From Paenibacillus amylolyticus (GTDB lineage: Bacteria > Bacillota > Bacilli > Paenibacillales > Paenibacillaceae): a stretch of DNA of 64,000 nucleotides. The stretch covers positions 1,860,001 to 1,924,000 of the forward strand of contig NZ_CP121451.1 of the NCBI RefSeq assembly GCF_029689945.1. The letters run 5' to 3'. Below the pieces are notes generated by a model, which saw only the letters and a program-made list of their open reading frames with translations, was not told the DNA's origin and did not search any database. Shown here piece by piece: positions 24,888 to 30,853 of this stretch; the first letter of the stretch is position 1; every line of letters begins with the position of its first letter. The position numbers and the translations under genes are program-made.

Positions 24888-24942
24888 ACGGGTATAAAAA
24901 TAGCGAGTGAGCCATATAGGCTCATAAGTTAGGGAACTTAAG

Positions 24943-25000
24943 AAAAAAGCAGGTACGCCCTTCTCTGGCATAACGGAGATGGAGTACCTGCTTTTCTTTT
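24943..25000. terminator. Bidirectional terminator after the YitT gene
   Basis: AAAGCAGGTAC pairs with GTACCTGCTTT, with A- and T-runs outside. Confidence 0.8.
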
Positions 25001-25008
25001 ATTAAAAG

Positions 25009-25200
25009 TTCAACTTAACATTTCACATAACGGAGAGGACAGAAATATCCTGAAGAAGTGGAACGTTCGCCTAAAAGCTTTCTGAAAGAAAGCTACTTGT
25101 GAAGCATATGCTATCCCCGGGATTTTCCCATTTAGAATAGGGAATCAAAAAAATCTGGGGATAACAGCGATCAGAAGGATGTTCTGTCATCGGAGTGCCA
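25009..25200 (+). repeat. Structured intergenic repeat, copy A
   Basis: Outer stem GACAGAAATATCCT against AGGATGTTCTGTC; conserved internal loop GAAGAAGTGGAACGTTCGCC on the left and AACAGCGATC on the right; inner stem CTATCCCCGGGATTT against AAATCTGGGGATAA. Compared with copy C, it has an extra segment of about 38 nt (25073-25110) with its own small hairpins. It lies between the YitT gene and the 3' end of the cardiolipin synthase gene. No named family recognised. Confidence 0.75.
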
Positions 25201-25203
25201 CCA

Positions 25204-26652
25204 CTACAGAATCGGAGATAACAGACGGGAAATCGCTTCTTTGAAGCGGATAACCAGACTGCGTTTTTGGTACTCCTCGAGCGTCATTTCCCTTGATACA
25301 TGCAGGTCGTGCTCAAAGGTTTGTACAAGTGCTGTCGCAATCGTTTCATCGTACATAAAAGCATTCACCTCAAAGTTCAACCGGAAACTGCGGTAGTCAA
25401 TATTGGCGGTTCCCACGGATGCAACCAAACTGTCAATGATAAGTGTTTTGGCATGAATGAAGCCATTGTCATAAATGAATACTTTGGCGCCAACCTTTAA
25501 CAACTCGCCAATATAAGATAACGTTGCCCAATACACGAAAGCATGGTCGGGTTTATTTGGAATCATAATGCGAACATCAATACCGGACAGACACGCGAGA
25601 CGAATGGCTTCGAATACACTGGCATCCGGGATAAAATAAGGCGTTTGGATCATAATCGAATGTTTGGCACCATTAATCATCTTGAGATAACTGTTCTTGA
25701 TATGCTCAGTCTCTGCATCCGGTCCACTGGACACAATCTGCATGGCCGTGTTGCCCGTACCCTCGATATGAGGGAAATGTGCCGGAACATAAGGTGTATC
25801 ATGCTGTTTGGATGCTTCATTCCAATCCAGGAGGAAACGGGTCTGCAATGCATGAACGGCATTCCCCTGAATACGCAGATGTGTGTCGCGCCAGTAACCG
25901 AATTTCGAGTTCAAGCCTAGATACTCATCACCAACATTAAATCCGCCCGTGTACCCAAGATTACCATCAATGATGACAATCTTGCGGTGATTACGATAGT
26001 TCATACGCAAGTTGATCAGACTGAATTTCGATGGGAAAAAGACTTCAACCAACCCGCCTGCTTCGCGCAATTCTTTGAAAAAGCGTTTGGATACCCGCCG
26101 CGAGCCGAGCGCATCATACAGCAAACGAACTTTGATGCCTTCCCGCGCTTTGCGGATGAGTGCGTCCCGAATTCTTTTGCCCAGACGGTCGCCTCTATAA
26201 ATGTAGTATTGCACGTGCACGTGATCCTTGGCCGCTTCGATGTCATCCAAGAGCCGCTGGAATTTGTCGGTACCGTCCGTAATGATCTCAACCGCATTAT
26301 CCTCTGTCAGCAGAGCACCGTTTTGCTTCAGATTCATATAGATCATGTCCTGGCTACTCTCGGTTGCCTGGTTGCGGAAGGGGGTACGGTTATCATGCAA
26401 CTGTGCGAGCTGGGCTTCAATACGTTCCTCAAGCCCGAGCTTCTTGCGTTCCTTCCACTGGAAAAGCCGATATCGGGTCAGATTCTGACCGGTTAGAAGA
26501 TAAAGTACAAACCCAAACACTGGAATAAAGTTCAAGACGAGCAGCCAAGCCCAGGAAGCGCTGGCATCTTTCCGTTCGAAGAAAACAACGGCTGCCGCAA
26601 AAATAATATTCAGGCCCAGGAGTACAATAAGTAAAATGGATTCGATATGCAC
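25204..26652 (-). CDS. cls: Cardiolipin synthase, phospholipase D superfamily
   Basis: About 482 residues. Two N-terminal membrane helices (SILLIVLLGLNIIFAAAVVFF; WAWLLVLNFIPVFGFVLYLL) are followed by two phospholipase D domains, each with an HKD motif (HRKIVIIDGNLGYTGG; HAKTLIIDSLVASVGTANID). It joins two phosphatidylglycerols into cardiolipin plus glycerol at the membrane. Start GTG 26652 is chosen because GGGG lies 6 nt upstream; GTG 26664 is the alternative. Single gene on the minus strand, divergent from argC. Confidence 0.93.
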   Translation of the reverse strand: MHIESILLIVLLGLNIIFAAAVVFFERKDASASWAWLLVLNFIPVFGFVLYLLTGQNLTRYRLFQWKERKKLGLEERIEAQLAQLHDNRTPFRNQATESSQDMIYMNLKQNGALLTEDNAVEIITDGTDKFQRLLDDIEAAKDHVHVQYYIYRGDRLGKRIRDALIRKAREGIKVRLLYDALGSRRVSKRFFKELREAGGLVEVFFPSKFSLINLRMNYRNHRKIVIIDGNLGYTGGFNVGDEYLGLNSKFGYWRDTHLRIQGNAVHALQTRFLLDWNEASKQHDTPYVPAHFPHIEGTGNTAMQIVSSGPDAETEHIKNSYLKMINGAKHSIMIQTPYFIPDASVFEAIRLACLSGIDVRIMIPNKPDHAFVYWATLSYIGELLKVGAKVFIYDNGFIHAKTLIIDSLVASVGTANIDYRSFRLNFEVNAFMYDETIATALVQTFEHDLHVSREMTLEEYQKRSLVIRFKEAISRLLSPIL

Positions 26653-26981
26653 TATAGTCCCCACGTCTCATAATGACGATCATGAATCTATTCATATGTC
26701 CTCGATTAGCAGGTTAGTTATGAATGAGACCCTGATTGTAATGTTTCCTACTAATACGTATTTTAACAGAAGTATACCTGTTCGTCCCGGATGTTAAAAA
26801 AGATATGTTCGGATTGGATGGAAATCCATGTGAAATTCATGATAGAGTGTTGTATTTATATAACCAGAGTCGTATAATAATACACAAATATGCATATAAG
26901 CGACGGAATTGCTATGTTCGGGCCTTTTTCATGCAAGGGCATAGCACAAGTAGCGCATACATCGAGATTGGGGGAGCGAGA
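26653..26981. promoter_or_regulatory. cls-argC divergent region with argC promoter
   Basis: TTGTAT (26850-26855), 17 nt, TATAAT (26873-26878) faces argC. TGAAATTCA (about 26831-26839) and TATGCATA (about 26889-26896) are short palindromes that could belong to AhrC/ArgR boxes, but neither is a full match, so repression by arginine is only likely from context. Confidence 0.5.
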
Positions 26982-28031
26982 GTGAATAACAAATTAAAAG
27001 TAGCAATCGTCGGTTCCACCGGCTACGGCGGGGTGGAACTGATTCGTTTTTTCCAGAACCATCCGCAGGTTGAAATCACATCGGTGATCTCATCATCGAG
27101 CAGTGGTGAGTCCATCGCAGATGGATTTCCGCATTTGACGGACGTGATTCACAGGCCACTTGACGGCGTAGATCCGGCTGAGATTGCGGTTCGTGCGGAT
27201 CTGGTATTCACAGCGACCCCGTCCGGCGTAAGCGCAAAACTCGTACCAAGCCTGCTGGCAGCAGGGCTTAAGGTCATTGATCTGTCTGGCGATTTCAGAC
27301 TCAAGGATGGAACAGTATACGAAGAGTGGTATAAACATCCGGCGCCTCCAGCTGATTTGCTGGAACAAGCGGTGTACGGTATGGCTGAGGTGTACGGTGA
27401 AAAGGTGAAGGGACAGAATTTTATTTCCAACCCGGGCTGTTATCCAACGGCTACCCTGCTTGGACTGATCCCTGCGGTAGAGGCAGGCTGGATTGATCCT
27501 TCTACTATTATTATAGATGCCAAATCCGGTGTATCCGGAGCAGGACGCGGAACAAGTCTGACGAACCATTATGCAGAGATGAATGAGAATTTCAAAGCCT
27601 ACAAGCTCAACAAACACCAACATATTCCCGAGATCGAGCAAGTGCTTGGCAACATAACGGGAACGCCTGTTACGGTTACCTTCACCACACATCTGGTGCC
27701 AATGACACGTGGAATCATGAGTACGATGTATGCAACACTCGTTGGGGAACACAGCAACCGGGAGATCGTGGATTTGTATCGCAAATATTATGAGAACAGA
27801 CCTTTCGTACGTGTACGTGAACCAGGTATCTGGCCTTCTACCAAAGAAGTGTACGGATCCAACTATTGTGATATCGGATTTGCGGTGGATCCTCGCACAG
27901 GGCGTTTGACGATTATTTCGGTCATCGACAACCTGGTGAAGGGTGCTTCGGGGCAAGCGATTCAAAATATGAACCTGATGATGGGATGGGAGGAGAACCT
28001 CGGGCTGAACATGACACCGGTATATCCATAA
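26982..28031 (+). CDS. argC: ArgC, N-acetyl-gamma-glutamyl-phosphate reductase
   Basis: 349 residues from GTG 26982 with GGGGGAGCGAG upstream; an ATG at 26805 in frame is too early. It begins VAIVGSTGYGGVELIRF, an NADP-binding Rossmann start, and carries the active-site cysteine motif FISNPGCYPTA. It reduces N-acetylglutamyl phosphate to the semialdehyde, step three of arginine synthesis. First gene of a seven-gene arg cluster. Confidence 0.96.
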   Translation: MNNKLKVAIVGSTGYGGVELIRFFQNHPQVEITSVISSSSSGESIADGFPHLTDVIHRPLDGVDPAEIAVRADLVFTATPSGVSAKLVPSLLAAGLKVIDLSGDFRLKDGTVYEEWYKHPAPPADLLEQAVYGMAEVYGEKVKGQNFISNPGCYPTATLLGLIPAVEAGWIDPSTIIIDAKSGVSGAGRGTSLTNHYAEMNENFKAYKLNKHQHIPEIEQVLGNITGTPVTVTFTTHLVPMTRGIMSTMYATLVGEHSNREIVDLYRKYYENRPFVRVREPGIWPSTKEVYGSNYCDIGFAVDPRTGRLTIISVIDNLVKGASGQAIQNMNLMMGWEENLGLNMTPVYP

Positions 28032-28164
28032 GGATTGGAGTTCGGAAGGCACTGGAATATTCGTTGTAAAATTAAAGTGCATTCTAGGAGCCACTTAGGG
28101 AGATTGGGTCAGGTTAAGCAGGCGGATCATCGGCATATAGCTGAACGCATACGGGGGATATGAT

Positions 28165-29402
28165 ATGGGAACGAATGTGGAGCAACAGAGTTTTACCGTG
28201 ATTGAGAACGGAACGATTGTAACCCCTGGGGGGTTCACTGCGGGTGGACTTCACTGCGGATTGAAAAAGACATCTCGCAACGACATCGGAGCGATCCGCT
28301 GTGATGTACCGGCAACAGCTGCTGCGGTGTATACAACGAATGTGTTTCAGGCGGCGCCACTCAAAGTAACACGTGAAAGCCTGAGCAATGGACGTCTTCA
28401 GGCGGTCATCGTGAATAGCGGTAACGCCAATGCGTGTACAGGGCAACAAGGGGAAGAAGATGCCTATGCGATGCGTTCAGCCGCTGCGCGTGAGTTGGGT
28501 GTGGCAGAAGAGGACGTAGCTGTGGCATCCACGGGTGTCATTGGGGAATTGCTCAAAATGGATGCTGTGTATTCAGGCATTACCGGCCTTCCGGCGCATA
28601 TGGGCAAGGAGTCGAATGAGGCGGAACAATTTTCACAAGCGATACTGACGACGGATTTGGTGAAAAAGGAAGCCTGCGTCTCCGTTACGGTTAACGGTAA
28701 GACGGTTACGATTGCGGGTGCCGCCAAAGGCTGGGGATGATTCATCCGAATATGGCGACGATGCTCGCTTTCATGACCTCTGACGCGGTCATTGGTGCAG
28801 AAGCGTTACAGCGCCTGCTGCGCCAAGCAACGAATCATACTTTCAACATGATTACTGTTGATGGGGATACAAGTACGAACGACATGCTGGTAGCCATGTC
28901 CAGTGGATATGCAGGCAATGAAGAGCTGACCACAGAACATCCGGATTGGGACGCTTTTGCAGCCGGCTTCACCTATGTATGCCAAGTGTTGGCCAAAGCC
29001 ATTGCACGCGATGGTGAAGGGGCAACCAAGCTGGTTGAGGTAGAAGTTACAGGTGCGGTAAGCGATGAATCTGCGCAAGCAATTGCCAAAACGGTTATCG
29101 GGTCCAGTCTGGTGAAATCCGCTATGTTCGGCGCTGACGCCAACTGGGGACGGATTATTGCAGCCGTAGGACGTGCAGGACAACCAGTGAACCCGGATAC
29201 GGTAAATATTCGTTTGGGAGAGATCTCGGTACTCGAACAGTCCCGTCCAGTCGTTTTCGACGAAGAAGCAGCATTGGCGTATTTGCAGACCGATACGGTG
29301 CGCATTGTGGTGGATCTGCACCACGGCGAAGGAACAGCAACAGCCTGGGGCTGTGACCTGACGTATGACTACGTCCGAATTAACGCAGCATACCGCACGT
29401 AA
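28165..29402 (+). CDS. argJ: ArgJ, bifunctional ornithine acetyltransferase (one-base frameshift)
   Basis: ATG 28165 after GGGGGATAT. N-terminal half: GGFTAGGLHCGLKK, VNSGNANACTG. C-terminal half: MIHPNMATMLAFMTSDA with the autocleavage site before the Thr of NMAT. The two are split by a C missing near 28732 (GGCTGGGG for GGCTCGGGG, restoring AKGSGMIHPNMA); corrected length is 412 residues, normal. The enzyme moves acetyl from N-acetylornithine to glutamate, recycling it; many bacterial forms also act as NAGS. Confidence 0.95.
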
Positions 29403-29524
29403 TAAGCCTTTGGAACAAAATGTTTACGAAACAGCTATCTTCTATTGTGAAGCTGGTTTGAAATATTTCAAAAATCATCAATGAAATTTAAACTTGTTAT
29501 TTTAATGTTTGATATATAGCGATA

Positions 29525-29660
29525 GTAATGGAGAAGACGGAATTGATTCTGAAGAAGTGGAGCGGTCGCCTTTGTCTCCGGGTTTCTCCCATATAGGAGG
29601 AATTCAAAAAACCTGGAGACAACAGCGATCGAAAGAACAATCCGAATTCGGAATGGACTC
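29525..29660 (+). repeat. Structured intergenic repeat, copy B (argJ-argB)
   Basis: Same architecture as copies A and C with different bases in the stems: inner stem TTGTCTCCGGGTTT against AAACCTGGAGACAA; outer stem CGGAATTGATTCT against AGAACAATCCG. The loop motifs GAAGAAGTGGAGCGGTCGCC and AACAGCGATC are kept. It fills most of the 334 bp gap, ending about 75 bp before argB. Confidence 0.75.
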
Positions 29661-29736
29661 ATAGCAGCCTTTGTCATCTTTTAAAGGTGTTGAATTTTAT
29701 TGAATGTGATTTTTACTAAGAAAGGAGCTTGCCCTC

Positions 29737-30575
29737 ATGAATTCAACAATGCCAAACAAGAGTACCGCAACGGAAGCGAGCACAGAGAAACAGATGTTTG
29801 TCATGAAATGTGGAGGCAGCACGCTGGCAGCATTGCCTGAGTCATTCTTCGCGGATCTGCGTGATTTGCAGTCTCAAGGTACACAGCCAGTGATCGTGCA
29901 TGGTGGAGGTCCTGCGATCTCGGACAACCTGACAAAGCTTGGTATCGAAACCGAATTCGTTAATGGTCTTCGCAAGACGACTGAACCTGTGCTGGACGTA
30001 GTGGAGATGGTGCTTGCAGGCAGTATCAACAAACAAATCGTGCGTCTGATCCAACGTGCTGGAGGTCGTGCACTAGGCTTATCAGGCGTGGACGGAGGTC
30101 TGATCCAGGCCAAACCTGTTACCAACCACGCAGAGATCGGTTGGGTAGGCGATGTCACTGGTGTGAACGCAGAGATTATCCAAGGCATCGTGAACTTGGG
30201 TTACATGCCCGTTATCGCACCAGTTGGTGTAGATGCAACCGGACAACGTTACAACATTAACGCAGATACAGCTGCGGGTGCAGTGGCGTCTCATCTTGGC
30301 GTAAGTCGAATGATTGTCGTGACTGACGTTCCTGGCATCATGAAGAACGTAGGCGGCGAGAAAAAGTGTTGCCATCCGTATCTGTACAAGAGATTGAGGA
30401 CATGATCCAGACCGGAGAAATCTATGGCGGCATGATTCCCAAAGTGCGTGCAGCAATCGCATGTATTCATGGTCAAGTACGTGAGGTCATCATCGTAGAT
30501 GGCAGCGAACCCCAGATCCTGAGCCGTGTGCTTGGCGGAGAAACCATCGGAACAAAAATCATCCGTATGCAATAA
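29737..30575 (+). CDS. argB: ArgB, acetylglutamate kinase (one-base frameshift)
   Basis: ATG 29737 after AAGAAAGGAG. Kinase motifs FVMKCGGST, IVHGGGPAIS, FVNGLRKTT and the nucleotide-binding NINADTAAGAVASHL are seen. An A missing from the poly-A run near 30362 (GAGAAAAAG) breaks the frame before VLPSVSVQEIEDMIQTGEIYGGMIPK; corrected length is 279 residues. It phosphorylates N-acetylglutamate, the usual arginine-inhibited step. The N-terminal 20 residues are a polar extension. Confidence 0.93.
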
Positions 30576-30642
30576 TTTTCTCAGTGCACTAAGGTCTTCA
30601 TGGTCTTATAGTAAATAAAAAAATATGTGCACGGCTTTTTAT

Positions 30643-30812
30643 GTGAAGATTGAACATTACACAATAACGTAGAGGACAGAAATAACCTGAAGAAGCGAAG
30701 CGTGCGCCTTTATCCCCGGATTTTCCCCTTTAAGGGACAATCAAAAAATCCGGGGATAACAGCGATCGGAAGGTTGTTCTGTCATCGAAGTGACAAGTGT
30801 AAAGTTAAGGTG
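30643..30812 (+). repeat. Structured intergenic repeat, copy C (argB-argD)
   Basis: Outer stem GACAGAAATAACCT against AGGTTGTTCTGTC; left loop GAAGAAGCGAAGCGTGCGCC; inner stem TTATCCCCGGATTTT against AAAATCCGGGGATAA capped by CCCCTTTAAGGG; right loop AACAGCGATCGG. Outermost arms TGAACATTACAC and GTGTAAAGTTAA are also roughly inverted, as in a small mobile element. It ends about 40 bp before argD. Confidence 0.8.
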
Positions 30813-30853
30813 TTCTCATAATTAGTGCCGTTGCACCAACCAATAGGAGTGAT

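Follow-up and report, generated by a model that had tools for sequence, protein, structure and literature searches.

What kind of element places three similar copies of itself, all in one orientation, into a single stretch of a bacterial chromosome, two of them inside one arginine operon? The question is raised by the window studied here, 64,000 nucleotides (nt) from the 6.83-Mb genome of Paenibacillus amylolyticus, in which a first-pass annotation made from the letters alone had noticed structured intergenic repeats whose stems change in step while two loop motifs stay the same. The copies belong to a family that has one fold, forms it on one strand, tends to lie sense to its genes and just before their ribosome-binding sites, and at two orthologous sites has in part kept its pairing through substitutions in place. 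The sense bias, the position ahead of ribosome-binding sites, the spread through the order, the accessory module and the conservation at orthologous sites were beyond the reach of that annotation. We consider it probable, though by no means assured, that each copy is a formerly mobile element that now acts in cis as a leader or intercistronic segment of messenger RNA (mRNA).

A four-helix fold on one strand

The three copies are all found on the + strand where the annotation had put them. Copy 1 (25020..25208, 189 nt in model coordinates) is of a long class and scores 109.1 bits with the structure model R1 and 72.5 bits with the model R2. Copies 2 (29517..29666; 118.9 and 116.6 bits) and 3 (30656..30803; 171.4 and 148.3 bits) are of a short class and occupy the argJ–argB and argB–argD gaps of the same operon, each sense to both neighbouring genes. 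R1 was built from 43 copies and rests on an RNAalifold structure whose junction is partly wrong. R2 was built from the 41 copies of alignment A3 (19 from the P. amylolyticus genome and 22 from five relatives); copies 2 and 3 are among these training copies.

The sequence does contain the stems as quoted and the two loop motifs, and the two-stem layout proposed at first stood as far as its stems went but has been refined to four helices with 35 model pairs. In copy 3 (+ strand), P1 (13 pairs with a bulged A; arms 30675..30688 and 30771..30783) is followed by an asymmetric junction with GAAGAA and a two-base-pair mini-hairpin, P2a (30695..30701), which has a GAA loop; then come P2b (five pairs; 30702..30707 and 30762..30767, the latter within the AACAGCGATC motif) and P3 (15 pairs; 30710..30724 and 30745..30759) with its variable tip. 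All these helices were placed from the curated structure and its pair counts. An RNAalifold structure derived from the P. amylolyticus copies, partly wrong in the junction, was replaced by this hand-made one once divergent copies had been seen. In A3, 89.9% of cells are paired and 30 of the 35 pairs have changed on both sides; none of 500 shuffles matches the structure on any of five measures, and slid versions of it pair only 37.9–50.5%. Taken singly, copies 3 (z -7.17) and 2 (z -4.62) fold far better than shuffled sequences, none of 200 being as good in either case, while copy 1 does so only modestly (z -2.78; 2 of 200 as good). An unpaired core is conserved as well: beside or within the junction, and at the base of P3, 14 columns have one letter in at least 95% of 167 copies.

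Pairing kept despite base change had been read as the hallmark of a selected fold, and diverse copies bear this out. Circularity was guarded against by aligning the distinct copies afresh on sequence alone, building a tree and permuting the inferred substitutions along its branches, which gave 60 nulls. The 181 copies available were reduced to 169 by dropping rows outside 125–175 nt, and these to 167 distinct ones, in which 20 column pairs covary at E < 0.05 beyond the tree-based null. Each of the 20 falls on the diagonal of a helix: 12 of the 15 pairs of P3, seven in P1 (one of them an outward extension beyond the model pairs), the outer pair of P2a (E 0.03) and none in P2b, most of whose columns are nearly invariant. 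The largest null covariation value, 89.2, stays below that of the weakest significant pair, 90.8; the E-values are approximate, as they come from a fitted exponential tail in a script of our own built on the idea of R-scape, not from R-scape itself. The 167 copies were gathered with the structure model, which biases the set in favour of the fold; even so, a set of 92 located in named genomes by an exact sequence pattern gives nine significant pairs, all in P1 or P3. The 42 BLAST-found copies of the P. amylolyticus genome alone yield no significant pair under the tree-based null. For this reason a link between columns 38 and 156 of alignment A1 (29 G-C, 13 A-U and one A-C among 43 copies of that genome), positions unpaired in the final model, is not claimed; the association may reflect a tertiary contact or a single inherited change.

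The strand that folds can be read from single steps away from Watson-Crick pairs, since those to G-U and those to A-C should be equal without selection on one strand. Parsimony over 37 pairs (the helices and four outward pairs) counts 393 double changes between Watson-Crick pairs; of the single steps, 179 lead to G-U, 95 to A-C and 204 to other mismatches. The excess of G-U over A-C (p 4e-7) identifies the reported strand as the folded one, and it is clear in P3, where G-U and A-C cells number 107 and 42.

The two arg sites allow the fold to be followed in place. A 2.86-kb arg query matches all 40 genomes sampled from the genus, P. amylolyticus included, and the loci of 30 of these (P. amylolyticus and 29 relatives) were compared. 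Both elements are present in 22 of the 30, namely in P. amylolyticus and in 21 relatives with 83–93% coding identity to it; two genomes have one element and six have none. At the argJ–argB site four relatives carry another subfamily and one of the 22 genomes a long copy, and at the argB–argD site four of the 22 carry long copies; variation of this kind at orthologous sites shows that copies are exchanged or repeatedly inserted. With these rows dropped, 17 of 22 remain at the first site and 18 of 22 at the second. Pooled over these species and counted on the curated helices, the two sites have undergone 19 double changes between Watson-Crick pairs, and single steps led to G-U 15 times and to A-C twice. 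Judged by these substitutions, the fold is partly or mostly kept in place at both sites. The count had been repeated in this form because folding the arg copies with their flanks gave wrong outer pairs and, at the first site, no clear excess of G-U over A-C (17 to 10). Separately, in the loci L179–L181 both arg copies share one P1 type, unlike most other species, and one site in L177 and in L182 has it too, which is a sign of exchange between copies.

The same counts bear on the idea that the family is nothing more than a DNA palindrome, maintained because template switching at replication copies one arm onto the other and so mimics compensation. Long imperfect inverted repeats and the signs of exchange between copies are what such a process would leave. 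Arm-copying repair, however, favours neither G-U nor A-C, yet the steps stand at 179 to 95 family-wide and at 15 to 2 at the arg sites, and template switching would not conserve an asymmetric unpaired core; we find this explanation scarcely credible.

Family size, distribution and inverted ends

The family reaches far beyond the window. BLASTN with copy 3 finds at least 42 matches in the P. amylolyticus genome (the best 40 of 211 candidates were scored), and R1 finds at least 150. Nine R1 matches outside the 150 occur in 555 kb of the same genome; of these, two in some 497 kb of background exceed 100 model positions, and extrapolation from them puts the number of full-length copies at about 180. 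The 150 matches fall into two length classes. The short one, about 149 nt, has 90 members; the long one, about 187 nt, has 60, and it bears an extra stem-loop module, about 38 nt in length, located near P2 at one or other of two positions. The module of copy 1 (25073..25111, + strand, 39 nt), placed by sequence reading and the long-class alignment, is of the same kind as in the genome's other long-class copies. In copies such as L056–L095 the position of the 38-nt module varies between the P2a loop and the P2b–P3 interval, which would fit either two separate insertions or a move.

R1 matches 15 of 20 genomes, P. amylolyticus included (12 of 12 in the genus and three of eight others in the order), and R2 matches 253 of 296 genomes of the order, an order of soil bacteria, at E <= 1e-5, in 36 of 48 genera; since the best 10 candidates per genome were scored in that survey, copy numbers from it are lower bounds. 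Thirty genomes that already matched, one per genus, have 1 to 44 matches each. In a phylum-wide sample seven of 398 genomes match, all seven from the genus or family of P. amylolyticus, with kinship given for 20 of the 391 genomes that do not. A core pattern, among the matches listed, gives 80 named loci, of which 75 are from Paenibacillus, three from Saccharibacillus, one from a 'Paenibacillaceae bacterium' and one from 'Bacillus sp. FJAT-27264'. No family match was found in phages, and among plasmids there was a single weak one, in a 2.7-Mb Paenibacillus record. In several genomes two to three copies stand in tandem array: L104 (1198–1948), L121 (787–1645), L281 (5123–5748), L251 (7218–7861) and L099 (1329–1652). 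Taken together with the shared fold, this distribution marks out an order-wide family of RNA elements of about 150 nt.

From roughly inverted outer arms the first-pass annotation had suggested an origin like that of miniature inverted-repeat transposable elements (MITEs), which the inverted ends partly bear out. Many P. amylolyticus copies end in CTATATAAGTTGAACTAA and its complement, the inverted ends measuring about 30 bp, and in 44 of 96 copies examined such ends can be recognised at either side; these copies share with MITEs their shortness, the lack of coding sequence and the terminal inverted repeats. Read against the end consensus, copy 3 retains decayed versions at its 5′ (30649..30662, + strand) and 3′ (30797..30815, + strand) ends. 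By eye no consistent target duplication is seen in the 44 rows, a TA duplication being indistinguishable from TATA-type ends. Across 12 genomes the end pattern has 45 matches in three, and the 30 of these that were examined all lie at full or partial copies of the element. In the genus of the window, one branch would have spread as a MITE-like element, moved in the past by a transposase acting in trans.

A comparison with 400 kb of one relative, in which 22 matches of at least 80 model positions were found, covered ten of the 16 P. amylolyticus copies in the compared region with their flanks. Six of the ten loci are matched in the relative, two of them by short copies (84 and 115 nt). Three of the other four hold element remnants, which marks them as losses, and one holds none.

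Placement before genes and likely role

Position relative to genes was determined with open reading frames (ORFs) called as longest frames, some of which are probably spurious. Two of 96 flanked P. amylolyticus copies lie inside an accepted ORF, and the other 94 were classed by their neighbours: 55 run sense to both genes, 13 run antisense to both, and the rest lie between convergent (11) or divergent (15) ones. The set from named genomes has 39 sense and 12 antisense copies among 78 classed (11 lie inside ORFs), and a distant set has 27 and eight among 53 (14 inside ORFs). Start codons were sought within 400 nt of the element end and counted if they had a Shine-Dalgarno-like site and opened a frame of 100 codons; stop-codon distances, which antisense frames confound, were left unused. 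Such a start lies beyond the 3′ end of 71 of the 96 copies and, on the other strand, beyond the 5′ end of 22. It is 25–75 nt away in 42 of the 71 on the sense side and in four of the 22 on the antisense side (Fisher p 0.001), with corresponding figures of 24 of 53 and three of 19 in the named set, and 16 of 42 and two of 11 in the distant set. The inverted repeat continues beyond the model end by about 24 nt, and so the element itself stops close to the Shine-Dalgarno site.

This sense-sided clustering is not expected of free-standing genes, and it therefore bears on the suggestion that the copies are independent small RNA genes, each with its own promoter and terminator. The tandem arrays of some genomes would suit such genes; promoter-like sites in the region (11 against 8.6 in shuffles) and terminator-like sites (4 against 6.3), however, do not exceed shuffled sequence, and the suggestion appears very improbable.

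Placement before ribosome-binding sites and the conserved unpaired core would also fit a leader regulon in which each copy is a switch that senses one shared ligand or RNA-binding protein. The genes downstream, however, are mixed: nine of ten proteins tested have Pfam families, of eight different kinds, with two solute-binding proteins among them, so that the single pathway typical of a riboswitch is not seen. At least 150 copies in one genome also lies, to our knowledge, far above the number reached by any known riboswitch class. A regulon of this kind is accordingly unlikely, and the mixed genes are our reason for preferring a general cis-acting element. On this reading a copy and the gene after it would share one transcript, and the folded copy would influence that mRNA in cis. 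Its most likely part would be that of a recognised site for processing or stability, through which the 5′ end and the output of the downstream cistron are shaped. As copies usually run in the direction of the gene and lie just before its ribosome-binding site, their arrangement suggests that they help to tune many genes.

The most serious competitor is a purely selfish mobile element whose fold serves its own movement, through one particular single DNA strand or an RNA intermediate, with no gain for the host; sense orientation and closeness to ribosome-binding sites would then reflect insertion preference and the loss of harmful insertions. The high copy number, the inverted ends and the losses in a relative all agree with it, as does the leading-strand bias described below. 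The strand asymmetry is compatible with it too, as a folded single DNA strand would likewise tolerate G-T better than A-C. Against it stand the pairing that substitutions in place have upheld at two orthologous sites (17 and 18 species), the sense-sided clustering before start codons (82 against 9 over the three sets) and the lack of a clean gain among the ten loci compared. It is the upkeep in place and the sense-side clustering that lead us to prefer the cis-acting element, and we hold the selfish explanation to be possible but doubtful.

A number of observations nevertheless weigh against a cis-acting, formerly mobile element. In P1, G-U cells only slightly outnumber A-C cells (133 against 119), and the two outermost pairs show no excess (14 against 18). 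The arg sites also have 23 changes, 21 single and two double, by which a standard pair was lost, and some of the double changes counted there may have come by conversion or exchange between copies. With four of ten loci lacking a match in a close relative, many copies are dispensable. An autonomous partner with the same ends was not found among the 30 examined end-pattern matches from the 12 genomes, and no clean new insertion was found among the ten loci compared with the one relative. Replication may also contribute: with dnaA near 1.06 Mb and the terminus taken as opposite, 112 of 150 copies lie on the inferred leading strand, and because the excess persists outside tandem contexts (19 of 26 copies in convergent or divergent ones), replication direction is a possible part of the orientation bias. 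Between tandem genes on the lagging strand, six copies are sense and two antisense.

A bolder version of the cis-acting element can be imagined, in which an ancient RNA leader, read by one order-specific factor, was copied by transposition to sites before well over 100 unrelated genes and retained at them; a selfish element would thereby have built up a post-transcriptional regulon across the genome. We regard this as rather unlikely.

The surroundings of the three copies have features of their own. Copy 1 lies between two convergent genes, and its final bases run into the 3′ end of the cardiolipin synthase gene (25204–26664, - strand). Directly before it, at 24939–25001, is an inverted repeat with 21-nt arms, 86% complementary, and a T-rich end, perhaps the transcription terminator of the upstream gene. 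In the arginine operon, argJ (28165–29402) consists of two abutting frames, 28165–28740 and 28737–29402, that match the first and second parts of the ArgJ profile, which indicates a frameshift or assembly error. The argB frame (29737–30405) ends early, its 222 amino acids matching positions 1–184 of a 231-position model, and could represent a second such error in the operon.

Comparison with known repeats and RNA motifs

Folded repeats in bacteria are often treated as clutter and their hairpins as a by-product of inverted repeats. A family with a covariation record that spans the order, a defined strand, an unpaired core and a preferred place makes the idea of a mobile RNA element as a gene-control device directly testable, and it would give a name to some 180 unlabelled features in the P. 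amylolyticus genome as well as to others in many related genomes. The annotation knew of no named family with this layout, and we have come upon none. Across the window no Rfam 15 family scores as high as its gathering threshold; with E relaxed to 10, the segment 24800–31000 gives six chance-like matches, none of them credible near the copies. Nor did we recognise a published description in the titles and abstract openings that our literature searches listed. The three outcomes that would have contradicted the annotation, a search confined to these copies, a lack of significant covariation and an exact match to a described repeat family, did not come about. The family thus apparently has not been described so far.

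Several known systems share parts of its design, as far as the accounts cited here describe them. ERIC/IRU and NEMIS (Correia) elements are short folded intergenic repeats with inverted ends that are transcribed with their neighbours; the orientation of ERIC matters, and cleavage of ERIC and NEMIS RNA by RNase E or RNase III has been proposed (PMC2229807, PMC3049150). The present family resembles them in being short, folded, intergenic and inverted at its ends but, unlike these repeats of enterobacteria and Neisseria, has an order-wide, strand-specific covarying junction, the comparison being one of descriptions. Repeats of Bacillus cereus of 100–400 bp often lie in untranslated regions or inside operons, and bcr1 reaches up to 130 copies per genome, with an average of 39 (PMC6542083, PMC3446304). 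bcr1 is reported to be specific to the B. cereus group and to have a TTTAT motif (PMC6542083; a title cited in PMC3446304), whereas the present family has TATA-type ends and belongs to another order, a distinction drawn from descriptions.

The BOX elements of Streptococcus pneumoniae are modular folded repeats with an optional inner module, found in the 5′ and 3′ regions of operon transcripts (PMC3049150). The family shares this modularity, but tandem repetition is possible for boxB, whereas the alignment here shows only single accessory modules, again as judged from descriptions. MRSC-65-2, a covarying structured motif with UYCCGG repeats that occurs in dozens of copies per genome in diverse phyla, is akin to it in covariation and copy number; in the structured-RNA survey that reports it, mobile/repeat sequence candidates (MRSC) are marked by inconsistent orientation (PMC11109978), whereas the Paenibacillus family is oriented with its genes, and the string 'Paenibacill' does not occur in the main text of that survey. 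A MITE-like folded repeat is a known kind of element, and what is new here is the order-wide, strand-specific fold and its place before ribosome-binding sites.

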